Positions 40,254 through 52,775 of a DNA stretch of 64,000 nucleotides are shown here, piece after piece. The notes below the pieces were generated by a model, which saw nothing but the letters and a program-made list of their open reading frames with translations, did not search any database and was not told where the DNA came from. The stretch is from Pleionea litopenaei (GTDB taxonomy: Bacteria; Pseudomonadota; Gammaproteobacteria; Enterobacterales; Kangiellaceae): the NCBI RefSeq assembly GCF_031198435.1, contig NZ_CP133548.1:806001-870000 (forward strand), given 5' to 3'. The position numbers were made by a program, and so were the translations under genes. How positions within the stretch are numbered: the stretch's first letter is position 1; every line of letters begins with the position of its first letter.

Positions 40254-41513
40254 TTACTTATTAAGAAACTTCTTTAAGTATTTGTAATTTGGAGTTAATT
40301 TTCCTTGATAGACGATCAAGGATCGATACAACTCTGGATGCAAATCTAAATCTTCAAACGATTTCGATAGATCCAAATCCATCAGATGCGGAATATAATT
40401 TTTTAAGATCGCACTGAAGTGCTCAGAAGCATCCTTCGACAGTTCGCAGGGTAAATTATCGATCGACATGACCGTAGGTCCTTCCCAAGAAACGCCGTCT
40501 TTCACGCTCTGCTCCACGACATTATAAGTAAAAGCAGGCTCATCAATGGTACTGGCCTTTTTAGTGCATTCCAGCGACCCGTCGATATCGCAACTAATGT
40601 CTCCAATTACCCAAGGTAATTTTTGCTGTTGTTCTACTAAACGATCAGAATCCAAATGTTTGGGATACTTTTCAGTCCAGTAAGGCGTTTGAATAAGTAC
40701 GTTAAATTTACCTAATAAATTATCAAATGTACTGACGTACTCTTCTTTTCCATTGGCTACGAAATTGTCGTACTCAAAGTCGCCACCGTCTACTCTCGCA
40801 TTAATGTGCCGAGAGCTGGCGACAGCATACCAACTACCTTCAGGAATATGACCTAGCAGAATGGATTCAATATCGATTTTTGGCAACTTTAACCAACGAC
40901 AAACTTCTTCCGCTCCGCGACCAACGTTACCGGTTCCAACAATTAATGCGCGGATAGGCTCGCCTTTTTGCAAGTCGAGTTGAGCAAATTGCTCTTTGAT
41001 TTCTTGAATATTGGTATAGTCTTTCGTCTGTTTCAGTCGTTGCAAATCAGTTTGTTTGTTAATTTGTGAAAGCTTAATTCCAGCGATCCAAAACGTATCT
41101 ATTGCTCCGGCAATGCCAGCAAAACGCCCAAAGGCTATCGTTCGAGCACCACGCTCGTTCACGATGGTTTCATAATCAAAAAGAGTTGCACCTTGATCAA
41201 TAAAACGTTGTAACAGAGGCATGTTATACGATTGGCCCTTGATCGTATGAGAAAAAGCAATATGTACTTGGCCTGGTTGAATTGAATCAACAGGTGGTTC
41301 TTTGATCCCTATTACAAGTTGGTGATGTTCCGGAGAGTCAACCAGCGTCGCTGCGATGTTGTTAAAACTGCCGTCGTCAAAAACTCGAATATCTGAGTGT
41401 TCAACGTCAACTTTGTAACCATTGGTGATAAGCTTCTCAATCGCCGCTGGCGTTAATGCCGAACGACGTTCCCATTGATTCTTGTGTTCCTTTCTTAATA
41501 CTGCCGATAACAT
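40254..41513 (-). CDS. lysine-2-oxoglutarate reductase (saccharopine-forming)
   Basis: A 419-residue protein of the alanine dehydrogenase/PNT fold that matches the N-terminal half of animal and plant AASS/LKR. Key segments are LRKEHKNQWERRSALTP, IGIKEPPVDSI, IAFSHTIKGQSYNMPLLQ and FGRFAGIAGAIDTFW, with the dinucleotide site IVGTGNVGRGAEEV. It condenses lysine and 2-oxoglutarate with NADPH to saccharopine. In animals it is fused to saccharopine dehydrogenase; here it is a separate gene and the partner lies at 48477. The yeaC-like gene is 32 bases upstream, in the same operon. Lysine degradation, not synthesis, is inferred from the ALDH7 gene at 51252. Confidence 0.88.
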   Translation of the reverse strand: MLSAVLRKEHKNQWERRSALTPAAIEKLITNGYKVDVEHSDIRVFDDGSFNNIAATLVDSPEHHQLVIGIKEPPVDSIQPGQVHIAFSHTIKGQSYNMPLLQRFIDQGATLFDYETIVNERGARTIAFGRFAGIAGAIDTFWIAGIKLSQINKQTDLQRLKQTKDYTNIQEIKEQFAQLDLQKGEPIRALIVGTGNVGRGAEEVCRWLKLPKIDIESILLGHIPEGSWYAVASSRHINARVDGGDFEYDNFVANGKEEYVSTFDNLLGKFNVLIQTPYWTEKYPKHLDSDRLVEQQQKLPWVIGDISCDIDGSLECTKKASTIDEPAFTYNVVEQSVKDGVSWEGPTVMSIDNLPCELSKDASEHFSAILKNYIPHLMDLDLSKSFEDLDLHPELYRSLIVYQGKLTPNYKYLKKFLNK

Positions 41514-42228: not shown

Positions 42229-43548
42229 CTAGTATCCGTCACTGAAGAGCACCAATTGTACTCCTCGTGCCGTCCACGGAGCAGTCTGACCACCGGCAAG
42301 CGGCATCGACGCGAACTTGGGTTTGCCATCGCTATCGACCGCTGTGTTCAAATAGTTGACCATGGTTTCAACCAAACGACCCGCGGCGAACATGGCTGGC
42401 CATGACCGATAGGCACTTGGCCAGTCCAGTGTGTACTCTCTTGGTCGAGTCCCTCCCCAACCAGGAACAATACCAATATTGGGGAAACGGTCGTGCAAGG
42501 TTTCAATGCCGGCTTCGACTAACAAAAAGTCTAAACGCGAGATAACTGAGGCCGAACAGCGACTATTCCAGCTAATCAACGTAGGACTGTTTGGCGAAGG
42601 CTGACAATTGGACGCCACCATACTGGCCAAATAAGACCACCCACTGTTCATTTTTGCGGTAGACTCTGAGTCGAGCTCAATAACCGTTCGCATAACGGCT
42701 TGAACATTTTCCCAAGTCACCTGTCGCTGTGGCAATCCAGCAAACATAAACACTTCCCTAGCCGTTTTCACCGCTAAGACTTTATCATCGAAACTCCACT
42801 CTTTACCCTGTTGTAAGAGTTCAACAAGCAGCCCGACACGATAAGCTAGAGGGCTTTCAGTAAAAGAATATTCCAAATATCCAGTACGTGGCTTCGGCCA
42901 AAAATACGCAAGAAGTCGATCATGCCAACCACTGACGGCTTCTCCGACGGCCTTACGTTGGTACATAGGTTGGTGTGGATCTTCATCAATCCAATCTACC
43001 AGAGCTCGAATAAACGCATCATCGTTGCTTTCGGCCGATGGAATGGTTGGTGGATAAATATCTTCGCCGATTATTTCAACACCGGCGTCATCCAAAATAC
43101 AGGGTTGGTCAGAAGGCGTCTCAATATCGGCTTGGATTCTTGCTTCAGCAAAATTCAGGTACAAGTCTTGCTCATTGAAGGTCAGCGAATCCCAATAATC
43201 AAGCGCCTGATCCGTTAATCTAGCCCCCTCGACAAAGCCGTCGCAGACGTCGGTCTTGCACTCAACAAACCGCAAAACAGCCGGGTTCAAGCGAATAAAC
43301 TCAGGATCGACTTGCTGGCGATCTCGAAATGACCAAGGAACCATCAACCGCGATAAAACTTCTACTGAAAATTGGCAACGTTCGTTCAAGAGCTGGTGCA
43401 GAGGCACAGCACTGTTATGCAGTGGCATCTTTCCTTCTCGCCACGCATAATGATCATCACTGAACCGTTTAAACCATACTTTCCAAGCAGCAATAAATAA
43501 TCCGCGAGGGATTTGGTAGTTTTCTGCATTTGAAAAGGTCATTTGCAT
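42229..43548 (-). CDS. unrecognised 439-residue protein
   Basis: A long intact reading frame with a good start (TAGGAG eight bases before the ATG at 43548), so it is very probably a real gene, but I do not recognise any family. The protein is soluble-looking, with no signal peptide and no membrane segment. It is rich in tryptophan (roughly 17 Trp), with acidic central loops. Conspicuous stretches are RGLFIAAWKVWFKRFSDDHYAW near the start, a proline-rich acidic part around 150-200, and GWGGTRPREYTLDWPSAYRSW near residue 375. It is isolated between two gene-free stretches of more than 300 bases. Lineage-restricted or acquired origin is possible. Confidence 0.7.
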   Translation of the reverse strand: MQMTFSNAENYQIPRGLFIAAWKVWFKRFSDDHYAWREGKMPLHNSAVPLHQLLNERCQFSVEVLSRLMVPWSFRDRQQVDPEFIRLNPAVLRFVECKTDVCDGFVEGARLTDQALDYWDSLTFNEQDLYLNFAEARIQADIETPSDQPCILDDAGVEIIGEDIYPPTIPSAESNDDAFIRALVDWIDEDPHQPMYQRKAVGEAVSGWHDRLLAYFWPKPRTGYLEYSFTESPLAYRVGLLVELLQQGKEWSFDDKVLAVKTAREVFMFAGLPQRQVTWENVQAVMRTVIELDSESTAKMNSGWSYLASMVASNCQPSPNSPTLISWNSRCSASVISRLDFLLVEAGIETLHDRFPNIGIVPGWGGTRPREYTLDWPSAYRSWPAMFAAGRLVETMVNYLNTAVDSDGKPKFASMPLAGGQTAPWTARGVQLVLFSDGY

Positions 43549-43857: not shown

Positions 43858-46800
43858 ATGCCACTGTCTTTAAACTTCCCCTCGCTGGTTACCAAGCCTG
43901 GATTTACCAATTATTTGGGTAAATTACCCGGCTCCAGCTCCGCGTTGGTTTTGGCTGAGTTGATTAATAGCTATGACGGTGTCATTCTCGTCTTGTGTGA
44001 AGGTTCGGCTCAAGCTCAACAGTTAGAGCGTGCATTAGATGCCTTTTACGGCGAGGCTGACCATTCGCGGCCAGTGGTTACCTTTCCGGACTGGGAAACC
44101 CTACCCTACGATCGATTTTCGGCCCACGAATCTATCGTATCAGAGCGCCTACATGCCCTTCACCAAATTGCCCAAATGCAACATGGCTTAGTCATTGCGG
44201 CTCTACCGGCAACGATATCCCGAATAGCAAAGCCTGACTTTATCCTTGGCAACTTATTTAAATTCCAAGTCGGCGCAAAGATGGATCTGTCTGCCGCACG
44301 GAACATCTTTGAGCAAGCTGGTTATCGCTGTGTAGAAAAGGTTTTGGAACATGGTGAGTTCGCTGTCCGCGGCTCATTACTCGATATATTTCCTATGGGC
44401 AACCATTTACCCATACGCGTCGATTTCTTTGACGATGAAATTGAGACCATTCGATCATTTGACCCTGAAACTCAAATGTCTGTCGACGCCTTAGATAAAT
44501 TCGAATTACTGCCTGCGCACGAGTTTCCCACTGATGATGCTGCTATCACTCATTTTAGGCAACAGTTTAGAAGTACCTTCGATGTTGAGTTAAAAGATTG
44601 TCAGCTTTACCAAGATGTCTCTAATGGTCTGTTACCAGCGGGTATCGAGTACTACCTGCCGCTTTTCAGCGAACAGACCGTATCGCTTTTAGACTACTTG
44701 CCTGAAAGCACTCTGGTGGTCACCGAAAGCAATTTGCAGTCGACTTTAAATAAGCAATGGGAAAGTCTTGAAGAGAGATACGAAGAATACCGCTGGGATC
44801 GTACAAGACCGATATTAGCACCTGAGCAGATATCCTTTTCACCCGAACAGTTTAATCAACAACTGAAACGATTTCCTCACTTAACGTTTAACGGAGATGG
44901 AAAAACCAACACCCCCACACTTCCGTTTCTGCCCGTTGACGACATCACGATTAATCACAAAGCAAAAGATCCGATAAGTGGCCTTCGGACCTTGGTTAAT
45001 GGCTCTCAAAACCGCATCGTAATTTGCGCCGAAGGTCCCGGACGCCGAGAAGCCATCAGTGATTTGCTCAAACGTTTTGAACATACTGTGACCGTGATAG
45101 ATAGTTGGCGTGAAGCTATTGAAAAGCCTTCTGGACTGTATTTAACCATTGCGCCAATCGAAGGCAGTTTTTCGCATCCAGATGTCACGCTCATAGCTGA
45201 GTCTAGCTTGTTTGGTCAACACGTTTTACAAAGACGTCGTCGGCAGCAAAAGGATTACAGTCCAGACACCTTGATTCACAGCTTGGCTGAGCTCAATATT
45301 GGAGCCCCTGTCGTTCATGCGGACCATGGCGTCGGACGTTATCTGGGACTCGAATGTATCACTGCCAATAATCAACCAGCAGAGTACCTTACCCTTGAAT
45401 ATGCGTCAGGCGATAAACTCTATGTTCCGGTACAGTCGCTGCATTTAATACATCGCTACACAGGTGCAAGTGACGAACAAGCACCATTGCACAAATTAGG
45501 CAATGAACAATGGGCTAAAGAACGTAAAAAAGCAGCTGAAAAAGTACGTGACGTTGCGGCAGAGCTACTCGACTTATACGCCAAGCGAGCCGCAAAAACT
45601 GGGTTTCAATACCAAACCGACAACGCTGAATATCTTCAGTTTGCCGATGGCTTTCCATTTGAACTAACCGATGATCAAGAATCCTCAGTTAATGCCATTT
45701 TACAGGATATGCAAGCGACCACGCCGATGGACCGACTGGTCTGTGGTGATGTAGGCTTTGGTAAAACCGAAGTCGCCATGCGAGCCGCGTTCATTGCCGT
45801 GCAGAATACGCGACAGGTTGCCGTACTCGTTCCCACCACGTTACTTGCTCAACAGCATTTTGAAAACTTTAAAGATCGTTTTGCTGACTGGCCATTCAGA
45901 ATTGAAGTCTTATCGCGGTTCAGAACCGCTAAAGAAACAGAAGCCGTTATCGCTGACATTCAAGCAGGCAAAGTCGATATCGTGATCGGAACTCACAAGC
46001 TGTTACAAGGCAACGTTGAGTTTTCAGATCTAGGTCTTGTGATAATCGATGAAGAACATCGCTTTGGTGTGCGGCAAAAAGAAAAACTCAAGGCCATTCG
46101 CGCAGAAGTTGATGTGCTCACCTTAACCGCAACGCCTATTCCAAGAACCTTGAATATGTCGTTATCTGGAATGCGCGACTTATCGATTATTGCAACGCCT
46201 CCGGCTAGACGACTTGCCATAAAAACCTTTGTCAGAGAGTACAACAAGCCGCTTATCAAAGAGGCCATTCAGCGAGAAACTTTGCGCGGTGGTCAAGTTT
46301 ACTTTTTACACAACAGTGTCGATTCCATTGAGCGTCGTGCCGCAGAGTTGCGAGAGCTAATGCCAGAACTGAATATTGCTGTTGCTCATGGACAGATGCG
46401 CGAGCGTGAACTTGAACAAGTTATGCAGCAGTTCTATCACCGAAAGTTTCATATTCTTGTTTGCACAACGATTATTGAAACGGGAATCGATGTTCCCAAT
46501 GCGAACACCATTATTATGGATCGTGCCGATAAACTCGGTTTGGCGCAGCTTCATCAGCTACGAGGACGAGTTGGTCGATCGCATCATCAAGCTTATGCTT
46601 ACTTAATGGTTCCCTCAATAAAAGGTCTTTCTCGCGATGCTAAAAAGCGGCTTGATGCAATATCGTCACTTGAAGATCTGGGTGCCGGTTTTTCACTGGC
46701 CACTCATGATATGGAAATTCGAGGCGCGGGAGAGATTTTGGGAGACGACCAAAGCGGTCAAATGGAAAGTGTCGGCTTTTCTATGTACATGGAAATGCTC

Positions 46801-47304
46801 GAGCAAGCCGTAACCGCGCTGAAAGAAGGTCGAGAACCGAGTTTATCCGAGAGTCTCGCTACCCAAACCGAAGTTGAGATTGGTTTACCGGCGTTAATTC
46901 CTGAAGATTACATCCCTGACGTTCATACTCGGCTAACGTTATACAAACGGTTAGCCAGTTGTAAAACTGAATCGAGTCTACGAGATTTGCAGGTCGAAAT
47001 GATTGATCGTTTTGGCTTGCTTCCAGACCATCTCAAAAATTTAATTAAATTAACGGAGTTAAAGCAGCAGTTAACGCCACTGGGCATTACTAAGCTGATA
47101 GCTACCGATAAAGGCCTCACTGTGGATTTTAATCCAGATACAGTGGTTAACCCTCAAGTCATCATTTCTTTAATACAGCGAAATCCGTCTCGCTATCGTT
47201 TAGAGAAAGGCACTATACTCAAAGTGTTACGAGATTTGACCGAGGCCACAGCTCGATGGAGTGAAATCGAGACATTGATTGCAACCCTAGGCGGACAACG
47301 GTAA
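43858..47304 (+). CDS. mfd: transcription-repair coupling factor
   Basis: The 1148-residue ATP-dependent translocase that removes RNA polymerase stalled at DNA lesions and recruits UvrA. Length equals E. coli Mfd. Domains in order: UvrB-homology region (about 1-330), RNA-polymerase-interaction domain (about 475-545; VVHADHGVGRYLGLE), RecG-like helicase with Walker A GDVGFGKTE near 630 and DEEHRFG, the TRG motif region RGRVGRSHHQAYAYL, and the C-terminal autoinhibitory domain. It is followed 62 bases later by csiV in the same direction, a common arrangement. Confidence 0.97.
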   Translation: MPLSLNFPSLVTKPGFTNYLGKLPGSSSALVLAELINSYDGVILVLCEGSAQAQQLERALDAFYGEADHSRPVVTFPDWETLPYDRFSAHESIVSERLHALHQIAQMQHGLVIAALPATISRIAKPDFILGNLFKFQVGAKMDLSAARNIFEQAGYRCVEKVLEHGEFAVRGSLLDIFPMGNHLPIRVDFFDDEIETIRSFDPETQMSVDALDKFELLPAHEFPTDDAAITHFRQQFRSTFDVELKDCQLYQDVSNGLLPAGIEYYLPLFSEQTVSLLDYLPESTLVVTESNLQSTLNKQWESLEERYEEYRWDRTRPILAPEQISFSPEQFNQQLKRFPHLTFNGDGKTNTPTLPFLPVDDITINHKAKDPISGLRTLVNGSQNRIVICAEGPGRREAISDLLKRFEHTVTVIDSWREAIEKPSGLYLTIAPIEGSFSHPDVTLIAESSLFGQHVLQRRRRQQKDYSPDTLIHSLAELNIGAPVVHADHGVGRYLGLECITANNQPAEYLTLEYASGDKLYVPVQSLHLIHRYTGASDEQAPLHKLGNEQWAKERKKAAEKVRDVAAELLDLYAKRAAKTGFQYQTDNAEYLQFADGFPFELTDDQESSVNAILQDMQATTPMDRLVCGDVGFGKTEVAMRAAFIAVQNTRQVAVLVPTTLLAQQHFENFKDRFADWPFRIEVLSRFRTAKETEAVIADIQAGKVDIVIGTHKLLQGNVEFSDLGLVIIDEEHRFGVRQKEKLKAIRAEVDVLTLTATPIPRTLNMSLSGMRDLSIIATPPARRLAIKTFVREYNKPLIKEAIQRETLRGGQVYFLHNSVDSIERRAAELRELMPELNIAVAHGQMRERELEQVMQQFYHRKFHILVCTTIIETGIDVPNANTIIMDRADKLGLAQLHQLRGRVGRSHHQAYAYLMVPSIKGLSRDAKKRLDAISSLEDLGAGFSLATHDMEIRGAGEILGDDQSGQMESVGFSMYMEMLEQAVTALKEGREPSLSESLATQTEVEIGLPALIPEDYIPDVHTRLTLYKRLASCKTESSLRDLQVEMIDRFGLLPDHLKNLIKLTELKQQLTPLGITKLIATDKGLTVDFNPDTVVNPQVIISLIQRNPSRYRLEKGTILKVLRDLTEATARWSEIETLIATLGGQR

Positions 47305-47366
47305 CCTGTCATTCTGAGGTTATTTTTTGATTGGCCGAATTGATTTAAGTTATTCAGGATAATTTG

Positions 47367-48440
47367 ATGAATTTTTACCCTTTTAAAAGACAGAAACGAT
47401 TTTCGATTGGTCAATTGATTGCGATCTGCACATCATCTCTTTTCGTCTTACCAATAATCGCTGAGACAAGTAACTCGAAATCGACTAAAGATGCTCGATG
47501 GTTTGACATTGAAGTGATTGTTTTCAAAAACGCCCGCGGAAATACTAACGAAGAGTTATGGCCTAAAAGCTCTGAGATAGTTTACCCGGAAAAGTTAATT
47601 GACCAAATGGTCAGCGCGCTTTATCCAGCTCCCGAAGGAGAAGTGCTAACACCTCCAGACGCTTTGAAAAAGAGCGATGAAAATGACGCGTCATCCACTA
47701 CTAAAGAAGTGGCTAGTTTAGCGGCGGATGCACAAGGTCAGAAAGACTTAGTGCCTTTTAGCCCTTTGCTCGAAAACGAATTAGCGTTAACCTCGATCAA
47801 AGAGTCTTTGCAGCGCAGTTCTCAATACCAACCTTTGGTTCACTACGGTTGGCGACAACCTGTTTACGATCGTGATGAATCTGAGTGGGTTCGTGTCGTC
47901 GGAGGACTAAATTACAACGCTCGTTTTGATCATCAAGGTCGCAGCTTGAGTGAAAACTCTTCACTCAAACAGTTGGGCTTAAGCCAACCATCGATCATTC
48001 AATCAGAAGCCGATCAAGGCTTAACTTCTCATTTCGATACGCCGACGCTAAAAAAATTTACCCCTGTACCAGAAATTGATGGAGCCATTCAGGTTTACTT
48101 AAGTCGTTATCTCCATGTTAATACAAAATTATTTATGCGTATTCCAGGAGAAGAAGAACTCGATGTCTCGGCCATTAGCTCATCTCTGTCTTCATCGATG
48201 CTTGACTTAACAAAAGACGGTCAATTGGACGAAGAATATGAAACTAACTTTAATTGGAGCTTTCAATCCGACAATTGGATGAACCAAGAAAAACAAACCA
48301 CGGTTATCGAACGACTGCTCAATTATCCCCTCTCTCAGTCACGACGCGTTCGGAGTGGAGAAACTCATTACTTCGACCATCCGCTATTCGGTGTTATCAT
48401 TCAAATAAGACCCTACTCAACTAATAAAGAAGAGTCTTAA
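47367..48440 (+). CDS. csiV: CsiV family periplasmic protein
   Basis: A 357-residue exported protein with a signal peptide (GQLIAICTSSLFVLPIIAE) after a basic N-terminus. The family pattern is RWFDIEVIVFKNARG followed by ELWP at the start of the mature protein, and YLSRYLHVNTKLFMR, then HYFDHPLFGVIIQIRPY at the end. In Vibrio, CsiV was described as a peptidoglycan-binding partner of the diadenylate/D-amino-acid stress response enzyme LpoA-type system; here only the family and its place after mfd can be supported. The ATG at 47367 has AGGAT before it. Confidence 0.8.
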   Translation: MNFYPFKRQKRFSIGQLIAICTSSLFVLPIIAETSNSKSTKDARWFDIEVIVFKNARGNTNEELWPKSSEIVYPEKLIDQMVSALYPAPEGEVLTPPDALKKSDENDASSTTKEVASLAADAQGQKDLVPFSPLLENELALTSIKESLQRSSQYQPLVHYGWRQPVYDRDESEWVRVVGGLNYNARFDHQGRSLSENSSLKQLGLSQPSIIQSEADQGLTSHFDTPTLKKFTPVPEIDGAIQVYLSRYLHVNTKLFMRIPGEEELDVSAISSSLSSSMLDLTKDGQLDEEYETNFNWSFQSDNWMNQEKQTTVIERLLNYPLSQSRRVRSGETHYFDHPLFGVIIQIRPYSTNKEES

Positions 48441-48476: not shown

Positions 48477-49628
48477 ATGGCGAATATTTGCGTGTTAGGT
48501 TGCGGAATGGTGGGCTCCGCCATGGCAATTGACTTGGTTAAAAACCACTCCGTCACTGTAGCCGATAAAAACAAAAAAGCATTAGCTGACACCAAAGAAA
48601 AAGCGGACGATCTAAAAACCATCGCCGCGGATCTGAGTGACGCAGACGCCATTTCTGATGTAATTGAAGATGCTGACTTAGTGGTTTGTGCGGTTCCTGG
48701 GTTCATGGGCTTTAACGTTCTTAAAACCGTTCTGAATAATAAAAAATCAGCGGTAGATATCTCATTTTTTCCAGAAAACGCTCTCGACCTCGATTATTTG
48801 GCGAAAAAGCATGAAGTTTATGCGCTGGTCGATTGCGGCGTTGCTCCTGGTATGGACAACATATTGCTTGGTCATCATGACTCAACGATGAAAGTACAAA
48901 AGTTTGAGTGTTTAGTCGGTGGCTTACCGCGTCAGCGCCGGTGGCCGTTTGAGTATAAAGCGCCGTTTTCTCCGATAGACGTTATCGAGGAATACACCCG
49001 CCCCGCTCGATTTGTTGAAAATGGAAAGCTGGTCACGCGCCCGCCACTCACCGATTGTGAATTGGTGCATTTTGACAAGGTGGGAACGCTAGAGTCATTT
49101 AATACCGACGGTTTGCGCACGCTTTTGCAAACCATGGATCACATACCGGATATGAAAGAGAAAACGCTTCGCTATCCGAGACACGCTGAATACATAAAAG
49201 TGCTGGCAGAGACAGGTTTCTTCTCCGAAGAGCCTATCGAAGTGGGAGGAGTGTCTGTCTCCCCTCTCGACTTTACCGCTAAAGTGCTCATCGATAACTG
49301 GAAGCTCAAACGTAATGAAAGTGAGTTTACCGTGATGAGAGTGACCATTGAAGGCGAAGAAAGTGGAAAAACTAAACGGTACGTTTATAACCTATACGAT
49401 GAAACGGATACCGCTTCAGCCACTTCTTCAATGGCAAGAACGACCGGTTTCACGGCCACAGCCGCAGTTAACTACCTCCTCGAGAACAAACCATCCGAAT
49501 CAGGAATCATTGCTCCAGAAGTATTTGGCGCTTATGATGGCGCCTGCGACTATGTATTGAAATACTTAAACGAGAGAAATGTTCAATACAAGAAAGAAGA
49601 AACTACTTTATCTACCGAGAGATCATAA
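48477..49628 (+). CDS. saccharopine dehydrogenase (glutamate-forming) family
   Basis: A 383-residue NAD(P)-dependent dehydrogenase of the saccharopine dehydrogenase/lysine 6-dehydrogenase family. The Rossmann start is NICVLGCGMVGSAMAIDLV, followed by DLVVCAVPGFMGFNVL and YALVDCGVAPGMDNILLGHH; the C-terminus is IAPEVFGAYDGACDYVLKYL. It would split saccharopine into 2-aminoadipate semialdehyde and glutamate. A lysine 6-dehydrogenase is the alternative, but a lysine-2-oxoglutarate reductase at 40254 and an ALDH7 at 51252 favour saccharopine. GGGAGA precedes the ATG. Its stop overlaps the next start (TAATG). Confidence 0.85.
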   Translation: MANICVLGCGMVGSAMAIDLVKNHSVTVADKNKKALADTKEKADDLKTIAADLSDADAISDVIEDADLVVCAVPGFMGFNVLKTVLNNKKSAVDISFFPENALDLDYLAKKHEVYALVDCGVAPGMDNILLGHHDSTMKVQKFECLVGGLPRQRRWPFEYKAPFSPIDVIEEYTRPARFVENGKLVTRPPLTDCELVHFDKVGTLESFNTDGLRTLLQTMDHIPDMKEKTLRYPRHAEYIKVLAETGFFSEEPIEVGGVSVSPLDFTAKVLIDNWKLKRNESEFTVMRVTIEGEESGKTKRYVYNLYDETDTASATSSMARTTGFTATAAVNYLLENKPSESGIIAPEVFGAYDGACDYVLKYLNERNVQYKKEETTLSTERS

Positions 49629-49876
49629 TGACTGAAGTACGAAAACTACCCGATGATAAGATCACTGAAATACGCGCCCATTTCGACTTTTTTGACCGCG
49701 ATAAAAATGGCGAAATCGATTTAGAAGAATTTACCGAGTTACTCCGAGTGCTTTCTCCTAAGTCTAGTAAACAACAGGCTGAGAGTGGCTTTTCATTCAT
49801 CGACGAAAACAGCGATGGTCATATTGATTTCGATGAGTTTCTCATTTGGTGGGAAACTTGCTGGTGGGAATACTAA
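49628..49876 (+). CDS. two-EF-hand calcium-binding protein
   Basis: An 82-residue cytosolic protein consisting of one EF-hand pair. Loop 1 is DRDKNGEIDLEE (residues 23-34) and loop 2 DENSDGHIDFDE (59-70). Both have acidic or Asn residues at positions 1, 3, 5 and 9, Gly at 6 and Glu at 12, so both should bind Ca2+. The C-terminus is aromatic (LIWWETCWWEY). No signal peptide, so it is cytosolic, unusual for bacterial EF-hand proteins, many of which are exported. The ATG overlaps the saccharopine dehydrogenase stop by one base, which makes translational coupling very likely. Confidence 0.9.
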   Translation: MTEVRKLPDDKITEIRAHFDFFDRDKNGEIDLEEFTELLRVLSPKSSKQQAESGFSFIDENSDGHIDFDEFLIWWETCWWEY

Positions 49877-49887
49877 TTCTCTTACTT

Positions 49888-49923
49888 AAGCCACAGGGCG
49901 TGTTTTTTACCCACCTGTGGCTT
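49888..49923. terminator. long-loop hairpin between convergent genes
   Basis: AAGCCACAGG and CCTGTGGCTT form a perfect 10-bp stem with a 16-base T-rich loop, just after the EF-hand gene and reaching the stop codon of the convergent DUF4826-like gene. Confidence 0.6.
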
Positions 49924-50395
49924 ATTCTTCTAACCACAATTCATTTTCATGATACAAAACCAGCAAATCTGCAGCCGCTTTTACATTCTCCTGCATTCTT
50001 AATTTAACCTCGTCACTCGGTTGTTTATTTTCAGCTTGGGCTGCTTGCTTTAGTTGTCTGGCCAAAAACAAATACTGACGACTGAACGCCAGTAGCGCTT
50101 CACGAGCGGTCGCGGCTGCTTTAAAGGGTAATGATAATGTTGGCAAATCACCACTGATCAACCAAATTCGCTTGGTTGTAGAATGTTGATTAACCGTAAA
50201 CTGCCATACCGACAGTGCGGGCTCTAAGGTTCTGGTTTGTTCATCACTGACGGCCAAAACATGCCAAGAATGCCGTTCACAATAAGATAACGCCAATTGC
50301 AGCTGTTCGGCTTCCCATTCACTTAGCAGGGTCCAGTCAATATTTAATTGATTGGATTGGGTAAGTGTAGAGTTGTTCGCTGGTTCAAGCACCAT
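49922..50395 (-). CDS. DUF4826-like protein
   Basis: A 157-residue cytosolic protein of unknown function. WEAEQLQLALSYCERHSW, ALSVWQFTV, RIWLISGDLPT, AAATAREALLAFS and the tail LLVLYHENELW follow the order of conserved patches I know from DUF4826 proteins of marine gammaproteobacteria (W..Q...A..Y, W.ISGDLPTD, AREA...FS, LY....LW). It starts seven bases after the gamma-carbonic anhydrase stop codon and is probably co-transcribed with it. Confidence 0.68.
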   Translation of the reverse strand: MVLEPANNSTLTQSNQLNIDWTLLSEWEAEQLQLALSYCERHSWHVLAVSDEQTRTLEPALSVWQFTVNQHSTTKRIWLISGDLPTLSLPFKAAATAREALLAFSRQYLFLARQLKQAAQAENKQPSDEVKLRMQENVKAAADLLVLYHENELWLEE

Positions 50396-51251: not shown

Positions 51252-52775
51252 ATGGATATTCTAAAAGAACTCGGTATTGAGTCTATTAACTCTGGCGCAA
51301 ACTTCTCCGCCAATGAGTGGAGCACCACCACCGATCAAGGCATTGTTGAATCAATCAACCCAGCCACTGGTGAACTAATTGCGAAAGTATACGCAGCATC
51401 AGAACAAGACTACGAAACAATCATTACTAAAGCGGAAGAAGCCTTTGCCGAATGGCGAATGGTTCCGGCACCGCTTCGCGGCGAAGTGGTTCGTCAAATC
51501 GGTAACGCTTTACGTGATCACAAAGACGCATTAGGTAGCCTCGTTTCAATGGAAATGGGCAAAATTAAAGCGGAAGGTGACGGTGAAGTCCAAGAGATGA
51601 TTGACATGGCCGACTTTGCGGTAGGTCAATCGCGCATGCTTTACGGCAACACCATGCATTCTGAGCGACCTCAACATCGCATGTACGAGCAATGGCACCC
51701 TCTAGGTATCGTTGGTTGTATTTCGGCGTTCAATTTCCCTGTCGCCGTTTGGTCTTGGAATGCTTTCGTCGCAGCGGCATGTGGTAACGTGACTGTGTGG
51801 AAACCTTCTCCAAAAACACCTTTGACGGCTATCGCTGTCCAAAATATCTGTAACAAAGTGATGGCTGAAAATGGCTATAAGCCAATGTTCTACACCTTTG
51901 TTGATAATACTGACAATAAATTAGCGGAAACCTTCATCAACGACAAACGCGTGAAAAAGATTTCTTTCACTGGCTCAAGCGTGGTTGGCAAGATGGTTGG
52001 TGTTAAAGTCGCAGAACGTATGGGCAAATGCCTACTTGAGTTATCGGGTAACAATGCGTTGATTATTGACGAAACCGCTGACTTAGAAAACGCCATTCCT
52101 TCAGCAGCCTTTGGCGCAGTGGGTACCGGCGGTCAACGTTGTACCACAACTCGCCGTTTGATTGTTCACGAAAGCATTGTCGACAAAGTGATCGACTCAA
52201 TGGTCGGTGCGTACAAGCAAGTTAAGATTGGCAACCCACTTGATACCAACACCCTGATGGGTCCGCTAATCGACGAAACAGCGGTACAGAACTTCGAAAA
52301 AGCTGTTGCGGCAGCCGTCGAGCAAGGCGGTGAAGTATTGTACGGTGGAAAGCGTATTGAAGGTGCGGGTCACTTCGTAGAGCCAACCATCATCAAAGCA
52401 GAAAATCATTGGGCAGCGGTTCAAAATGAAACGTTTGCGCCAATTGTTTACATCATGACATTCAAAACCATTGAAGAAGCCATCGAGTTAAACAACTCAG
52501 TTCGTCAAGGTCTATCAGCAGCAATGTTTAGCATGAATATGCGCAACATAGAAAAGTTCTTATCGGCCGCGGGTAGCGATACAGGTATTGCGAACATTAA
52601 TATCGGTACTTCAGGTGCTGAAATTGGTGGCGCATTCGGTGGTGAAAAAGAAACCGGTGGCGGTCGCGAAGCAGGTTCAGATGCTTGGAAAGCTTATATG
52701 CGTCGTCAAACCAATACTATTTTCTGGGGTGAAAAACCTACCTTAGCGCAAGGTATTGAATTTAACTTGGGTTAA
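51252..52775 (+). CDS. amaB: L-aminoadipate-semialdehyde dehydrogenase (ALDH7 family)
   Basis: A 507-residue aldehyde dehydrogenase of the ALDH7A1 (antiquitin) group, which oxidises 2-aminoadipate semialdehyde to 2-aminoadipate with NAD+. The catalytic cysteine is in [13 protein letters not shown] and the general base glutamate in [14 protein letters not shown]-binding motifs are [14 protein letters not shown] and [11 protein letters not shown]. The tail [19 protein letters not shown] is typical of ALDH7. It completes the route lysine to saccharopine to semialdehyde to aminoadipate formed by the genes at 40254 and 48477. A gap of 70 bases separates it from leucine dehydrogenase, possibly co-transcribed. 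Confidence 0.92.

Follow-up and report, generated by a model that had tools for sequence, protein, structure and literature searches.

To our knowledge, few soluble sensors of bacterial intracellular Ca2+ signalling have known targets. The closest described structural counterparts of the protein considered here are the N-terminal lobes of calmodulin and troponin C, with which it shares two paired canonical EF-hands and four helices. Among bacterial proteins, EfhP of Pseudomonas aeruginosa has two canonical EF-hands and binds Ca2+ (PMC9132961); the likeness is one of description, both being bacterial proteins with two canonical EF-hands, and implies no claim of homology. Two lysine-degrading enzymes are also relevant. 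The structure 3ABI is that of L-lysine 6-dehydrogenase (PMC10413350) from Pyrococcus horikoshii, an archaeal thermophile, and plant lysine-ketoglutarate reductase (LKR) is activated by Ca2+ (PMC7253579). The window, by which we mean the whole stretch of 64,000 nucleotides that was analysed, carries a small EF-hand gene directly behind a gene for an enzyme that is most likely an L-lysine 6-dehydrogenase (Table 1).

Table 1. Positions of the features at and around the EF-hand locus, in window coordinates.
Feature	Position	Strand	Remarks
Lysine-ketoglutarate reductase (LKR)	40254..41513	-	related to the human AASS LOR domain; partner of the true saccharopine dehydrogenase (433 aa) encoded elsewhere in the genome
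Mfd (transcription-repair coupling factor)	43858..47304	+	named by eye; conserved upstream neighbour
CsiV-family protein (PF10972)	47364..48440	+	upstream neighbour, same direction
Saccharopine-dehydrogenase-superfamily enzyme, 383 aa	48477..49628	+	most likely L-lysine 6-dehydrogenase
TAATG, dehydrogenase stop/EF-hand start	49626..49630	+	one-base overlap
EF-hand protein, 82 aa	49628..49876	+	both loops canonical; C-terminal helix rich in Trp; one copy
EF-hand loop 1, DRDKNGEIDLEE	49694..49729	+	residues 23-34
EF-hand loop 2, DENSDGHIDFDE	49802..49837	+	residues 59-70
Conserved C-terminal tail WWETCWWEY	49847..49873	+	residues 74-82, end of helix 68-81
Stem-loop just 3' of the EF-hand gene, between convergent genes	49887..49924	.	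-20.6 kcal/mol, z -5.9
L-piperidine-6-carboxylate/aminoadipate-semialdehyde dehydrogenase	51252..52775	+	separate unit; NF050084, 743 bits, cut-off 730

The EF-hand gene and its product

The first-pass annotation had described an 82-residue protein with two canonical EF-hand loops that begins inside the stop codon of the dehydrogenase gene, and the open reading frame, the TAATG junction and the Pfam matches all agree with it. The start codon, ATG, takes its A from the final base of the TAA stop that closes the dehydrogenase frame. Pfam returned EF-hand_1 over two stretches (E 1.2e-12) and the EF-hand_7 pair (E 2.9e-12), the latter being the single EF-hand_7 match in the host genome. Both loops are canonical at positions 1, 3, 5, 9 and 12, and the protein shows the features of its class, namely paired helix-loop-helix motifs, 12-residue loops, oxygen ligands at positions 1, 3 and 5, and Glu at position 12. 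It is acidic (pI 4.3), and neither a signal peptide nor a membrane segment was evident by eye. Protein identity inside the genus is 72-82%, where synonymous sites are saturated for the calculation of dN/dS; in three close pairs of relatives with estimable dS, the ratio is 0.005-0.03. Because of this low ratio, the frame is a real, constrained gene and not a chance one.

Across 35 sequences, D23, D25, I30 and E34 of loop 1 and D59, I66 and E70 of loop 2 are invariant. So are W74, W75 and W79 of the C-terminal tail, while C78 and W80 are conserved at 90% or above. The tail pattern WWxxCWW[EQ][YF] is retained in most members of the EF-hand family; its Cys position is changed to Gly, Ala, Thr or Ser in some members from families f7 and f13, and the tail of Marinicella reads WWQTNWTVF. 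In the predicted structure (pLDDT 81), four helices form an EF-hand pair closest to calmodulin N-lobes, several of which are apo or Mg/Mn-bound; the model was built without Ca2+ and its open or closed state is uninformative. Superposition on the calmodulin N-lobe 3uct gave a Z of 12.8 and an rmsd of 1.3 over 72 residues, and troponin C was matched at the sequence level with an E of 1.9e-20. The last helix of the model reaches residue 81, with a mean pLDDT of 77 at residues 71-80 and of 54 at the low-confidence end (residues 81-82). Unlike calmodulin and troponin C, the protein is bacterial, consists of one lobe only and ends in an aromatic helix, WWxxCWWEY.

The stem-loop that follows the gene is likely a terminator shared by the convergent genes and would mark the end of the unit. 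In the promoter/terminator scan, sites were no commoner than in shuffled sequences, and the loop of this element exceeds the length that the scan allows; the inverted-repeat search returned nothing at its position. Farther upstream, an open reading frame for 439 residues (42229-43548, minus strand) had zero Pfam matches at E 1e-5.

Gene pairing within and beyond the host family

The closest named relatives of the host genome (f1) are Pleionea species; it is grouped with smaller genomes (g5), presumably Kangiella. Within the host family, the EF-hand gene lies downstream of the dehydrogenase gene on the same strand in 33 of the 38 genomes that have the dehydrogenase (G000-G037), and the pairing persists family-wide down to about 55% protein identity. 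The two genes overlap in three of these 33 genomes, each from the window's genus (TAATG junctions in two and a 4-nt overlap in the third). Elsewhere they are separated by a gap of 6-81 nt (25 genomes), or by 620-651 nt with an intervening gene (five genomes). From the tight coupling, the first-pass annotation had proposed that the two proteins are made in a fixed ratio. The overlap itself is real in the window, but a fixed ratio is not conserved, since overlap is limited to three close species and most relatives have a gap, often bearing a ribosome-binding-site-like AAGGAG. The gene intervening in the five genomes (loci L084, L085, L086, L074 and L189) belongs to the PRiA4_ORF3 family, as Pfam-tested in one of them.

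Four genomes (G014, G019, G020 and G023) have no EF-hand gene at the locus, with the dehydrogenase intact and adjoining a DUF4826 gene; G017 is uninformative because its locus is cut off by the end of a contig. Both genes are absent from two further, incomplete genomes, G038 and G039. Although old in the host family, the pairing is not obligatory. Distances between EF-hand proteins correlate with those between dehydrogenases beyond what Mfd accounts for (partial r 0.50), but the value against the aldehyde dehydrogenase is no lower (0.55), and the correlation was set aside as unspecific.

Across the order as a whole, a profile search of 394 sampled genomes placed the EF-hand family in 53, at one copy each and counting a weak partial match in G108 (E 4e-9), and it found the family in few others of the class; a scan of genome contigs with one protein query instead of a profile gave five loci. 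The protein occurs at 48-58% identity in genomes that have no close relative of the 383-residue dehydrogenase, and this enzyme was absent beside the EF-hand protein wherever tested in other families. The gene usually follows a UPF0176 gene (trhO) in f7, several genera of which carry it, and follows pgpA in f13. It precedes look-alikes of rpsU (assigned by eye), yqeY and dnaG in Marinicella, and in f4 it is divergent from genes for an M14 carboxypeptidase and a 433-residue-type saccharopine dehydrogenase. The EF-hand protein and the 383-residue enzyme are encoded on separate contigs in the distant genome G403, and the enzyme lacks an adjoining EF-hand gene in G438 and G697. A search of viral contigs found no relative. 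The conservation of the pair in relatives, which the first-pass annotation had named as a check, thus holds for most of the host family, with four losses there and unrelated neighbours in other families. A dedicated subunit or regulator should keep to its enzyme; here the EF-hand protein occurs without the enzyme and the enzyme is retained without the EF-hand protein. Our literature search, with subscription papers outside its coverage, found no paper dealing with either the EF-hand family or the coupling.

Candidate roles of the EF-hand protein

We favour, at a probability of roughly 0.6, the reading that the EF-hand protein would bind Ca2+ as a small cytosolic sensor, built as one calmodulin/troponin C lobe with a near-invariant aromatic tail helix, whose gene ends an mfd-csiV-lysDH unit. 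In Pleionea and its relatives, the gene would be the last of this putative transcription unit, which would provide its expression. Because the same protein and tail are retained beside other genes in other gammaproteobacterial families, its true target is probably not the lysine dehydrogenase encoded upstream. The family-wide pairing counts against this reading, as such pairing is often a sign of a functional link. A short, single-copy, strongly conserved protein of calmodulin-lobe type is a tractable sensor candidate, and its signature tail offers a handle on the partner.

The protein might instead be a general Ca2+ buffer with no specific target. Its acidity, small size and single copy would suit such a role, as would its unrelated neighbour genes in different families, but buffering would not require the near-invariant aromatic tail, which lies exactly at the C-terminus and suggests a surface for binding; we consider a pure buffer unlikely. 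Slightly less probable again is the reading that, in the host family, binding of the EF-hand protein to the lysine dehydrogenase makes lysine oxidation Ca2+-dependent. The genes share a strand without an intervening gene in 28 of the 33 host-family genomes with both, they overlap in the window, and Ca2+ activation of a lysine-degrading enzyme has its precedent in plant LKR. However, the plant effect concerns another enzyme, the EF-hand gene is absent in relatives that have the dehydrogenase and present in other families that do not, and the distance correlation is unspecific. Since the EF-hand family stands alone and adjoins unrelated genes elsewhere, the gene neighbourhood is weak evidence for calcium control of lysine breakdown. 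A lineage-specific effect of the EF-hand protein on lysine oxidation is possible, though conservation does not point to it. We give a low probability to the broader proposal of a new Ca2+ sensor family, combining a calmodulin-like lobe with the WWxxCWWEY tail helix, that would have a conserved cytosolic target in several gammaproteobacterial families and would in addition modulate L-lysine 6-dehydrogenase in Pleionea and its relatives. As this case shows, an overlapping gene pair together with a superfamily label can hint at regulation that is not borne out once relatives are compared.

Identity of the dehydrogenase and other lysine-breakdown genes

The dehydrogenase had been labelled a saccharopine dehydrogenase, which is right for the superfamily (Pfam Sacchrp_dh_NADP and Sacchrp_dh_C) and does not fit the enzyme itself. 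Its best solved relative is 3ABI, matched over the full length at 221 bits (E 3e-64), against at most 65 bits for saccharopine dehydrogenases. Its predicted structure (pLDDT 89) superposes on 3ABI with a Z of 47.6 and an rmsd of 1.9 over 348 residues; Z is 38-42 against carboxyspermidine dehydrogenases and their relatives and 32-36 against saccharopine dehydrogenases. A characterised lysine dehydrogenase of similar length is its closest relative in both sequence and fold, from end to end, and saccharopine dehydrogenases of the LYS9/AASS type trail behind in both; the archaeal protein comes from a thermophile and the window enzyme is known here from its sequence and predicted fold. These comparisons indicate that the 383-residue enzyme is most likely an L-lysine 6-dehydrogenase. 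It would oxidise lysine in one step and supply the aldehyde dehydrogenase of the separate downstream unit, the next enzyme of lysine oxidation. For lysine 6-aminotransferase, an alternative entry step, there was no match above the cut-off.

A second enzyme of the same genome, of 433 residues (G000:C1:161332-162633), has the opposite profile, scoring 383 bits against saccharopine dehydrogenases and 49 against 3ABI. The LKR gene of the window is distant from it. The host genome appears to carry both the saccharopine route and the one-step lysine dehydrogenase route. Among 37 host-family genomes (G000-G036), 23 have both LKR and the 433-residue enzyme, 13 have neither and one, an 82% complete draft, is a mismatch with LKR only (Fisher 4e-9, relatedness not corrected for). 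Searching with the 433-residue enzyme as the query confirmed the assignment for the 24 host-family genomes covered; for the other 13 it comes from weaker cross-matches. The 383-residue enzyme was found in 37 of 37, including the 13 without LKR, whereas a saccharopine dehydrogenase would be expected to occur with LKR. That the 383-residue enzyme is the pathway's saccharopine dehydrogenase, for which its superfamily domains and the LKR gene about 7 kb off could be cited, is highly improbable and was rejected on sequence, fold and co-occurrence, as 3ABI outscores saccharopine dehydrogenases in bits and Z, another enzyme has the expected profile and 13 genomes keep the 383-residue enzyme with neither LKR nor the 433-residue one. 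A link between calcium and saccharopine dehydrogenase is unsupported, because the enzyme is most likely another and the EF-hand family behaves independently of it.

Two relatives (L087 and L088; L154) carry a second 383-residue-type enzyme, 47% identical, and lack an EF-hand gene close to it. The 433-residue saccharopine dehydrogenase gene is immediately preceded, in both the host and f4, by a gene resembling M14 cytosolic carboxypeptidases (L152:2072-4634, L067:3458-5925 and L068:3666-6182), an assignment that Pfam testing covered in L067 alone.
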